From NCBI GenBank assembly GCA_902609885.1, contig CACLTT010000002.1, positions 115,661 through 179,660 on the forward strand: a DNA stretch of 64,000 bases, given 5' to 3'. A model generated the notes under the pieces. The model was given only the letters and a program-made list of their open reading frames with translations. It was not told the DNA's origin and searched no databases. The position numbers were made by a program, and so were the translations under genes. The stretch comes from an uncultured Candidatus Hydrogenedens sp. GTDB taxonomy: Bacteria; Desulfobacterota_D; UBA1144. Positions 46,637-49,295 of this stretch are shown piece by piece; position 1 is the stretch's first letter; each line of letters opens with the position of its first letter.

Positions 46637-47545
46637 ATGATTGAATATAAAATTATAAGTTTTTATAAATTTTTTGACATTAAATCTTCTGAAACTTTAA
46701 AAAACAAAATTCTTAAAGAGTTTAAAAAAAACTCAATCTTAGGGACATTAATTCTTTCTCAAGAAGGAATTAATGGCATGTTGTCTGGAAAAGAGCAAAA
46801 TTTATATAATATTATAAATTTTTTAATTCAAAATTTTAATCTTAAAATGCAAGATTTTAAATCTTTGAACTCTTCTAAAAAGCCATTTCATAGATTGAGA
46901 ATAAAAATAAAAGATGAAATCATTAGCCTAGGTAGGCCTAAATCTTCAAATCCAAATAAAAATGTTGGTAAATATTTACAACCTTATGAATGGAATGACT
47001 TTTTAGAAAAGGAAGACGTAATTTTAATAGATACCAGAAATTATTATGAAACTTCAATTGGAACATTTAAAAATTCTATTATACCAAATATGTCTAATTT
47101 CAAAGATTTTCCTAAGTTCGTGGATTCGTTAAGTAAGTATAAAAATAAGAATATCGCAATGTTTTGTACTGGAGGAATAAGATGTGAAAAGGCTAGCTCT
47201 TATATGATTGAGCAAGGCTTTAAAAACGTGTTTCACCTCAAGGGCGGAATTATTAATTATTTGGGGCAAATAAAAGAGAAAATATCAAAATGGCAAGGAG
47301 AGTGCTTTGTTTTTGATAATAGAGTCGCTGTTAAACATGATTTATCCCCTGGGGTTTATAAAATGTGCCATGCTTGCAATGAGCCAATATCATTATCAGA
47401 TACTAAAAGTCCAAAATACAAAGAAGGTGTACATTGTCACAAATGTTTTGGTAAATTAAATAAAAAACAGATTGAGAGGTTGTCGGAGAGACAGAAACAA
47501 ATTGACTTGGCAAAAAAAATAGGGAAGGTGCATTTAGGTGTATAA
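46637..47545 (+). CDS. trhO: tRNA uridine(34) hydroxylase TrhO (rhodanese-like)
   Basis: TrhO uses oxygen to hydroxylate U34 in some tRNAs on the way to cmo5U or mo5U. The 302-aa protein has the N-terminal UPF0176 domain ('GTLILSQEGINGMLSG'), a rhodanese domain ('VILIDTRNYYETSIGTF', active-site loop 'FCTGGIRCEKAS') and a C-terminal cysteine-rich end (CHACNEP...CHKC) that could bind zinc. All match YceA/TrhO. QueG in this window also modifies position 34 of other tRNAs. The last 8 nt overlap the next lipoprotein ORF. Confidence 0.92.
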   Translation: MIEYKIISFYKFFDIKSSETLKNKILKEFKKNSILGTLILSQEGINGMLSGKEQNLYNIINFLIQNFNLKMQDFKSLNSSKKPFHRLRIKIKDEIISLGRPKSSNPNKNVGKYLQPYEWNDFLEKEDVILIDTRNYYETSIGTFKNSIIPNMSNFKDFPKFVDSLSKYKNKNIAMFCTGGIRCEKASSYMIEQGFKNVFHLKGGIINYLGQIKEKISKWQGECFVFDNRVAVKHDLSPGVYKMCHACNEPISLSDTKSPKYKEGVHCHKCFGKLNKKQIERLSERQKQIDLAKKIGKVHLGV

Positions 47546-48014
47546 AATTATTTTTCTAATACTATTTCTACTCACTGTAGGATGTTCAGATGAAAAAGTT
47601 TTTATGGCAAAAGGGGAATTTATTGATAATCAGAATAACAAGATAGGATTCGTTGAAATTATGCAACAAGGTAACGGATCAAATATAAAAATCTTTATTA
47701 AGGGAATGTCCCCTGATGATTATTATTTTAACTTTCATGATAAAGCATCATGTAATTCTCCAGATTTTGATTCATCTGGCACTAGATTAATTTTTTTTGA
47801 TGATAGAGAGAATCTTTATAAATTTCGGGTTAGTAAGGAAATCAATAGGTATACAGGAAAAGTTAAAGATTTTAATAAAATATTGTTTATTGAAAATATA
47901 ATCCTAGACCCAAGTCAGTCTTCATCTTTATTAGATAGCAACTTATCATCAATCATAATAAGCAAAATTGATGGAACTAGAATTATATGTTCAGAAATAT
48001 ATCCTAGCTATTAG
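47538..48014 (+). CDS. Putative lipoprotein, unknown function
   Basis: The 158-aa product has a short signal peptide with a lipobox-like end ('LFLLTVGC', cysteine at about residue 16). The mature domain contains 'MQQGNGSNIKIFIKGMSPDDYYFNFHD', then 'CNSPDF'. This resembles the start of the Cu/Zn superoxide dismutase beta-barrel (a 'GLxPGxHGFHIHxxGDC'-like region), but the metal-binding histidines are largely missing. I treat it as a SOD_Cu-like fold at low confidence. The start overlaps trhO, and it converges with the glutaredoxin gene (11-nt overlap). Confidence 0.65.
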   Translation: MYKIIFLILFLLTVGCSDEKVFMAKGEFIDNQNNKIGFVEIMQQGNGSNIKIFIKGMSPDDYYFNFHDKASCNSPDFDSSGTRLIFFDDRENLYKFRVSKEINRYTGKVKDFNKILFIENIILDPSQSSSLLDSNLSSIIISKIDGTRIICSEIYPSY

Positions 48015-48261
48015 AATCAATCAAAATTGATAGCTTGTCTTCCATATGCAACTTATTGAGCTCGTCAAATCCGCCTACTAATTTTTCATTAATAATTATT
48101 ATTGGAACTGTTTTCCAATTATACTGACTAGAAATTTCGAGTCTTTCTTCTAATTTGTTAGTTAAATCGATTTCTTCATATTCAATATCTAGCGATTTAA
48201 ATAAATTTTTAGCTGCAATACAAAATGGACAATATTGAGTGCTATACATTTTTACATTCAT
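48004..48261 (-). CDS. grxC: Glutaredoxin
   Basis: The 85-aa protein has the dithiol active site in 'STQYCPFCIAAKNLF' and the GSH-binding 'TVPIIIINEKLVGGFDELN' segment. Both are characteristic of class I glutaredoxins such as Grx3 (grxC). It reduces disulfides and glutathionylated proteins. It overlaps the upstream membrane protein gene by 4 nt, so the two are probably co-translated. Confidence 0.92.
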   Translation of the reverse strand: MNVKMYSTQYCPFCIAAKNLFKSLDIEYEEIDLTNKLEERLEISSQYNWKTVPIIIINEKLVGGFDELNKLHMEDKLSILIDSNS

Positions 48262-48701
48262 TTCAATTCAATCCTTTTTTCCTTATAAAATATCGATAGT
48301 ACAACATAAAAAATTAAAAAAGCAAAAAAATCTTGAATTAAATATATGGTCATGAATTCTAGACGATTTAAACTGAATACAAAAAAAATAATTAGTATAT
48401 AAAAAACATATGATGACAAACATGCAAGTATACCAATCCATAATCTTTTAATTTTAAGATATTTATAAATAAATAAATAAACTAAACCTAATAAAAAACA
48501 AAAAATGTAATATTGAATTAGGCTGAAAAAAAATTCATATGGAAACAAAAAATTAATATATTCAAAATAAAAAATTATATTTACTGATTCAAATGGATAA
48601 GGAGCATAAATATAAAAACAAAAAACAGAAACTGAAGATATTAATATTGCAATGATATAGTCAAAAACTTTAACAATAAAATTATATAATAATTTAAACA
48701 T
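48258..48701 (-). CDS. Small polytopic membrane protein, unknown function
   Basis: The 147-aa product has about four hydrophobic helices with many Phe/Tyr/Ile residues and very few charges. No family is recognised. Its end overlaps the glutaredoxin start by 4 nt, and it begins about 18 nt downstream of the terminator of the 66-aa gene, so a separate promoter is needed. Confidence 0.6.
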   Translation of the reverse strand: MFKLLYNFIVKVFDYIIAILISSVSVFCFYIYAPYPFESVNIIFYFEYINFLFPYEFFFSLIQYYIFCFLLGLVYLFIYKYLKIKRLWIGILACLSSYVFYILIIFFVFSLNRLEFMTIYLIQDFFAFLIFYVVLSIFYKEKRIELK

Positions 48702-48718
48702 TCGATATGATAATAAAA

Positions 48719-48752
48719 AGAAAAAAGGTTAGGATGGTTACCCAACCTTTTT
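48719..48752 (-). terminator. Rho-independent terminator after the 66-aa gene
   Basis: On the minus strand AAGGTTGGG-TAACCAT-CCTAACCTT forms a 9-bp stem with one G-U pair and a 7-nt loop, followed by TTTTTT. The reverse orientation also ends in a T run. This is the clearest intrinsic terminator I found in the window. Confidence 0.85.
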
Positions 48753-48756
48753 AATG

Positions 48757-48957
48757 TTACTGATTAACAGCTCTTTTGTGCTTAGACTGGTTTTCAGGTC
48801 TTCCAAAATCTAAACCAACTTTAGCAGCCCAATTTTGATGACCTGCAACATGACCTGCATAGCCAAGTGCTTTTTGCGGATCGTGTGCTGTTTGAGCAAA
48901 ATCCTTACTAACTTGCCTAGCCCAATTACGCTGTGGTGAATTGTGATTATCTGGCAT
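48757..48957 (-). CDS. Small, probably highly expressed protein with an internal duplication
   Basis: I do not recognise this 66-aa soluble protein. It contains two related blocks, NWARQVSKDFAQ (about residues 11-22) and NWAAKVGLDFGR (about 42-53), separated by an Ala/Gly/His-rich stretch (ALGYAGHVAGHQ). The ends are rich in Asn, Gln, His and Lys, with no cysteine and no membrane segment. G+C is clearly higher than the surrounding DNA, suggesting selected codons. A near-consensus promoter, AGGAGGTG Shine-Dalgarno and strong terminator make it a one-gene unit. It might be a nucleic-acid or chaperone-like small protein, which is speculation. Confidence 0.8.
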   Translation of the reverse strand: MPDNHNSPQRNWARQVSKDFAQTAHDPQKALGYAGHVAGHQNWAAKVGLDFGRPENQSKHKRAVNQ

Positions 48958-48978
48958 AATGCACCTCCTGATATATAA

Positions 48979-49007
48979 ATTGTATCAAAAGGTAATTTTA
49001 AATTCAA
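48979..49007 (-). promoter_or_regulatory. Sigma70-like promoter of the 66-aa gene
   Basis: On the minus strand TTGAAT (49002-49007) and TACAAT (48979-48984) are separated by exactly 17 nt. Initiation near 48972 leaves a leader of about 15 nt that contains the AGGAGGTG ribosome site. The promoter lies between the ferredoxin stop and the small gene. Confidence 0.7.
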
Positions 49008-49016
49008 CTTATATGA

Positions 49017-49295
49017 TTAATCTTCAATTTCATCAATCAATAGGTCGCTTTCAGGGGTTGCAACACAGAGAAGAACTTTATTATTTTTTATATCTTCTTC
49101 AGATAAAGAATCTAGATCTGGTTCTTCAATATATGAGGTTTTTCCTTCCAAAATTGTAGCAATACATGTTGTACACATTCCTTGGAGACAAGCAAATGGT
49201 ATATCTAAGCCTTCATCATTAGATTTACTTAAAATTGATTCTCCTTTTTGAACTATTATTATTTTATCTTTATTTTTAAACTTAACTTTATACAT
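49017..49295 (-). CDS. Plant-type 2Fe-2S ferredoxin
   Basis: This 92-aa electron carrier has the cluster ligands in 'CLQGMCTTC' (CX4CX2C) with the fourth cysteine in 'LLCVATPESD'. The acidic C-terminus (LLIDEIED) is typical of oxygenase or reductase partner ferredoxins. No oxygenase is adjacent, so the partner is unknown. The start is divergent from lysA across 56 nt. Confidence 0.93.
   Translation of the reverse strand: MYKVKFKNKDKIIIVQKGESILSKSNDEGLDIPFACLQGMCTTCIATILEGKTSYIEEPDLDSLSEEDIKNNKVLLCVATPESDLLIDEIED

Follow-up and report, generated by a model that had tools for sequence, protein, structure and literature searches.

A conserved promoter-to-terminator unit for a 66-residue basic orphan protein in a family of pelagic Dadabacteria

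In the 64,000-nucleotide stretch of DNA that was analysed (hereafter, the window), chosen open reading frames (ORFs) cover about 98% of the sequence and the median gap between them is 1 nt. Within it, a first-pass annotation had described a 66-codon gene as a self-contained transcription unit. The questions raised by this locus are whether such signals are real in DNA of this kind, and what the encoded protein might do.

The transcription unit and its conservation

All of the described features, namely TTGAAT-17-TACAAT, a leader of about 15 nt, a Shine-Dalgarno sequence and a terminator, were present, and were located on the minus strand, which the annotation had omitted (Table 1). The -35 and -10 elements were separated by 17 nt, and the leader length was obtained from the 21 nt between the -10 element and the ATG, assuming a start about 7 nt past the -10. 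The match to the anti-Shine-Dalgarno sequence was 8 nt long, compared with 6 nt for the runner-up among the 66 ORFs of the window.

Table 1. Positions of the 66-aa unit, its elements and neighbouring genes in the window
Feature	Position	Strand	Remarks
Transcription unit, 66-aa gene	49007-48719	-	
-35 element TTGAAT	49002..49007	-	Identical in 14/14 genomes
Extended -10 element TGATACAAT	48979..48987	-	TACAAT at 48984-48979, preceded by TG
Shine-Dalgarno sequence AGGAGGTG	48961..48968	-	Longest among 66 window ORFs; GGAGGTG near-invariant across the family
66-aa ORF, basic orphan protein MPDNHNSPQRNWARQVSKDFAQTAHDPQKALGYAGHVAGHQNWAAKVGLDFGRPENQSKHKRAVNQ	48757..48957	-	Orthologues in 14/14 family genomes
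Repeat block 1 NWARQVSKDFAQ	48892..48927	-	Residues 11-22
Repeat block 2 NWAAKVGLDFGR	48799..48834	-	Residues 42-53
Intrinsic terminator	48719..48752	-	12-bp stem, 7-nt loop and U tract; stem 48752-48722, T tail
Plant-type 2Fe-2S ferredoxin gene	49017-49295		Upstream neighbour of the 66-aa gene
Hydrophobic 135-147-aa protein	48258-48701		
SodC-like lipoprotein	47538-48014		Weak PF00080 match

A consensus scan of a 2.5-kb region returned 12 promoter-like sites, compared with 18.8 in shuffled sequences, and one terminator-like site, compared with 0.8 expected from shuffles; since the window is AT-rich (30% G+C), such a scan cannot separate signal from noise. The promoter and terminator were therefore judged real by their conservation across 14 genomes and not by consensus matching. 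In the alignment of the orthologous loci from these genomes, TTGAATT, TTTG and TACAATT were each 100% conserved, with values of 82% for the spacer and about 55% for the DNA upstream of the -35 element. The spacer was 17 nt wherever the first TTGAAT match was the true promoter; odd values at three loci (L005, L008 and L012) came from chance upstream TTGAAT or TACAAT matches, and the aligned promoters were regular. Elsewhere in the genome only matches with two mismatches were found, the pattern itself occurring once. Judged by its sequence, the promoter resembles those used by housekeeping sigma-70, and no conserved upstream operator was seen near it in the 14-genome alignment. Terminator pairing was judged by folding the sequence of each genome. 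A hairpin was located directly 3' of the stop codon in 13 of the 14 genomes, and both arms of its stem had changed in sequence from genus to genus (GGTTGGG/CCTAACC, GGTCCAACT/AGTTTGACC and ATGACCAG/CTGGTCAT). For AT-rich genomes, in which a consensus scan breaks down, phylogenetic footprinting can reveal genuine promoters.

A short leader, a compact 250-nt unit and a terminator would also suit a functional small RNA in which the ORF is incidental, but the substitutions were mostly synonymous (pairwise omega against the window copy, 0 to 0.22 in the 14 genomes), the length was 66-67 aa throughout and the Shine-Dalgarno sequence was strong. By its substitution pattern this alternative appears largely refuted already, and it is considered very improbable. 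No Rfam match to the unit was obtained. Thirty residues were invariant, including W12, W43, N11, N42, H25 and H36. At the locus of one genome (G008, L013), the coding sequence contained several N bases, by which the amino-acid differences are slightly underestimated.

Neighbouring genes

The conserved order at the locus was lysA < > fer2 - 66aa - membrane protein - grx - (SodC-like, opposite strand), and the order around the 66-aa gene was kept in most genomes read. Between the window and its most distant relative (G006), identity was 67% for the 66-aa protein, 59% for Grx, 51% for Fer2, 40% for the SodC-like lipoprotein and 35% for the membrane protein. In two genomes, G003 (genus g1) and G011 (genus g2), fer2 was absent at the locus and genome-wide (E ≤ 0.001), which suggests two independent losses. 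The 66-aa unit, including its promoter, was unchanged in both despite the missing ferredoxin gene, and therefore stands alone. The unit is genuine and conserved, encodes a protein and does not depend on the genes beside it; the self-contained transcription unit of the first-pass annotation was borne out.

The conserved gene order, together with the two invariant histidines H25 and H36, could point to a redox or metal accessory of the adjacent 2Fe-2S ferredoxin, glutaredoxin and SodC-like lipoprotein, in which the conserved His bind metal. This is doubtful, however, because the 66-aa gene has its own promoter and terminator and outlasts the ferredoxin gene, those clade I members that were read lack the Cu/Zn ligands of the SodC-like lipoprotein while their 66-aa protein is conserved, and the 66-aa protein contains no Cys.

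The ligand motifs of the SodC-like lipoprotein (MHIHEKG and GHHG) were lost in those genera with rhodopsin that were read (window, L005 and L007) and kept in members of g2, g3 and g5; the lipoprotein of the surface clade is, from its sequence, possibly a pseudo-enzyme. A conserved hydrophobic protein of 135-147 aa was always encoded between the 66-aa gene and the glutaredoxin gene, and gave no match in Pfam, NCBIfam or PHROG. Synteny was also used to look for a remote homologue in a sister family, where no small counterpart stood alongside the nearest Fer2 gene, that of G041.

Composition and distribution of the protein

The local score of the 12-residue duplication was beaten by at most 1 of 5000 shuffles, and the duplication was significant in all 14 orthologues (p ≤ 0.018), in agreement with the duplicated protein described earlier. 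The protein consists of two related amphipathic W-x3-V-x3-(F/T) segments, a linker of H-[DN]-P-Q-x-A-x-G-Y-A-G-H-V between them and a basic tail, with a pI of about 10. Its tryptic peptides include ALGYAGHVAGHQNWAAK and DFAQTAHDPQK.

The higher G+C content noted for the coding DNA was confirmed, at 41.8% the first of the 66 window ORFs (mean, 29.4%). As an argument for expression it failed, since the raised G+C is due to amino-acid composition and not to codon choice (GC3, 0.224, 13th of 66; mean, 0.197). The codon adaptation index relative to four ribosomal genes, a weak test for so short a gene, ranked 52nd of 66, without a codon-usage sign of high expression, and the suggestion of an abundant protein was accordingly not upheld. 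The promoter, Shine-Dalgarno sequence and terminator are compatible with strong expression, and the longest Shine-Dalgarno sequence fits efficient translation.

In streamlined ocean bacteria, few genes persist without a purpose. Side-chain nitrogen amounted to 0.64 per residue, the top of the window (median, 0.31; four ribosomal proteins, 0.42-0.57), and the proteomes of the host's group have been reported to be nitrogen-saving (PMC8115339). A nitrogen-costly orphan kept in every genome of the family with its promoter unchanged is probably important to physiology.

Relatives carrying the gene include the metagenome-assembled genomes NAT430, SP78 and TMED58, and the genus TMED58 has been assigned to the phylum Dadabacteria (PMC10978986); the host itself belongs to the streamlined pelagic Dadabacteria. 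Rhodopsin was present in its own genus (g1) and in g4, and absent from g2, g3 and g5, a pattern that appears to correspond to the pelagic clades I and II that Graham and Tully described (PMC8115339), to which the genera were assigned by inference. Each of the 14 family genomes carried the 66-aa gene, and it was missing from the remaining 44 genomes of the class, profile search included. A peptide-pattern scan of 84,980 GTDB species, the sole test of specificity against other phyla, gave matches in the own family only, and no match was found in viral contigs, phages or plasmids.

Searches of Pfam (all 14 members), NCBIfam, PHROGs and PADLOC with the protein returned no family. In the PDB, the best sequence match was methanol dehydrogenase (domain i-Evalue, 4.1), taken as chance, and the best profile match had a chance-level E of 1.5. 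The earlier statement that no family is recognised therefore stood, and a clear match to a known family, named there as the outcome that would count against it, was looked for and was absent from the libraries searched. The monomer structure prediction that had been asked for was run with AlphaFold2 on the 14 sequences and on the single sequence, at low confidence (pLDDT, 52 and 56), with low-confidence helices at about residues 8-22, 27-36 and 41-46; a Foldseek comparison of the second model with the PDB gave none.

Possible function and relation to known systems

From its composition, its invariant W, N, H and R residues and its two similar segments, the product may be a constitutive RNA- or ribosome-associated small protein with incidental redox neighbours, a reading that is preferred tentatively as a real possibility. 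The monocistronic, putatively sigma-70-transcribed gene would give an mRNA of about 250 nt and from it a cytoplasmic, basic, lineage-restricted small protein. Alone, this protein would be largely disordered or weakly folded, and its two similar sites would bind nucleic acid or a ribonucleoprotein, most likely the ribosome; the adjacent redox genes are probably neighbours only. Owing to the poor structure prediction no binding surface could be read, and the profile and sequence searches yielded no homologue among ribosomal or nucleic-acid-binding proteins. HU, considered as a protein for which the product might stand in, was itself present in all 14 family genomes, so that a replacement of HU was rejected.

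Hydrophilins are defined by a glycine content above 6% and a hydrophilicity index above 1.0 (PMC7448490), and all 14 members had such a composition (Gly, 7.6-11.9%; -GRAVY, 1.0-1.34, the minimum printing as 1.0), this being a compositional class whose membership implies no homology. A disordered, LEA/KGG-like hydrophilin that protects under stress without a specific partner would agree with this composition and the low pLDDT, and DPQKALGYAGHV loosely resembles, by eye, the KGG repeat of YciG. It is nevertheless rather unlikely, because the thirty invariant residues exceed the conservation usual for a bulk protectant, the promoter appears constitutive, and the KGG profile and direct comparisons were negative.

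The ribosome hibernation factor HPF/RaiA (PF02482) was distributed as the exact complement of the 66-aa gene: none of the 14 family genomes had it, and each of the 44 others in the class did. Since the family forms one branch, this complementarity counts as one event, and as evidence of function it is suggestive but weak. The surroundings of hpf were read in two sister genomes, where it was located elsewhere and not at the 66-aa locus; the genes after it resemble what we take to be ptsN, hprK and rapZ, with rpoN presumably before it in G030. Because hpf lies in a cluster of this rpoN/hpf/ptsN/hprK/rapZ type, it was perhaps lost as a cluster, and its loss may be general streamlining. The 66-aa protein might, as a new kind of bacterial hibernation factor, have replaced the lost HPF/RaiA during genome streamlining, its two aromatic-basic segments clamping the ribosome in starved cells. 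The complementary distribution and an RMF-like size, charge and hydrophilin composition would favour such a replacement, as would the structural diversity of hibernation factors between lineages (PMC10901736). It is nonetheless improbable, given that the pattern reflects just one evolutionary change, on a branch where gene loss was massive, and given a gene away from the hpf locus, no similarity to RMF, and a promoter of housekeeping sigma-70 appearance in which no conserved upstream operator was seen. Should the protein prove to be a ribosome factor, this would account for ribosome management in starvation by a lineage that lacks HPF.

Among known systems, RMF, which is counted among the hydrophilins (PMC7448490) and occurs in some gammaproteobacteria (PMC10901736), is likewise small and basic with hydrophilin composition, but has no detectable homology with the 66-aa protein (hhalign probability, 0.3%; no RMF match in the PDB profile search). 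The KGG/YciG/con-10 stress proteins (PF10685) share small size, hydrophilicity, short internal repeats and, by eye, a DPQ-A motif; the 66-aa protein, however, lacks their glycine-pair KGG core, and no match above the cut-off was obtained in any genome, hhalign and BLASTP also being negative. HPF/RaiA, by its complementary distribution, is a possible functional analogue, but differs in size and locus and has no sequence relation, the Pfam scan of the 14 members being without a match. Also comparable are the synapomorphic FESNov families of uncultivated taxa (PMC10849945), which are near-universal in a clade, absent outside it, under purifying selection, conserved in gene order and without a known family. 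Against FESNov-type thresholds (at least 90% clade coverage, 100% specificity and dN/dS below 0.5), the 66-aa gene gave 14/14, 0/44 and omega ≤ 0.22. Those families were reported at the level of phylum, class and order, whereas the 66-aa gene is restricted at the family level; it is an orphan that defines its clade, like those in that catalogue.
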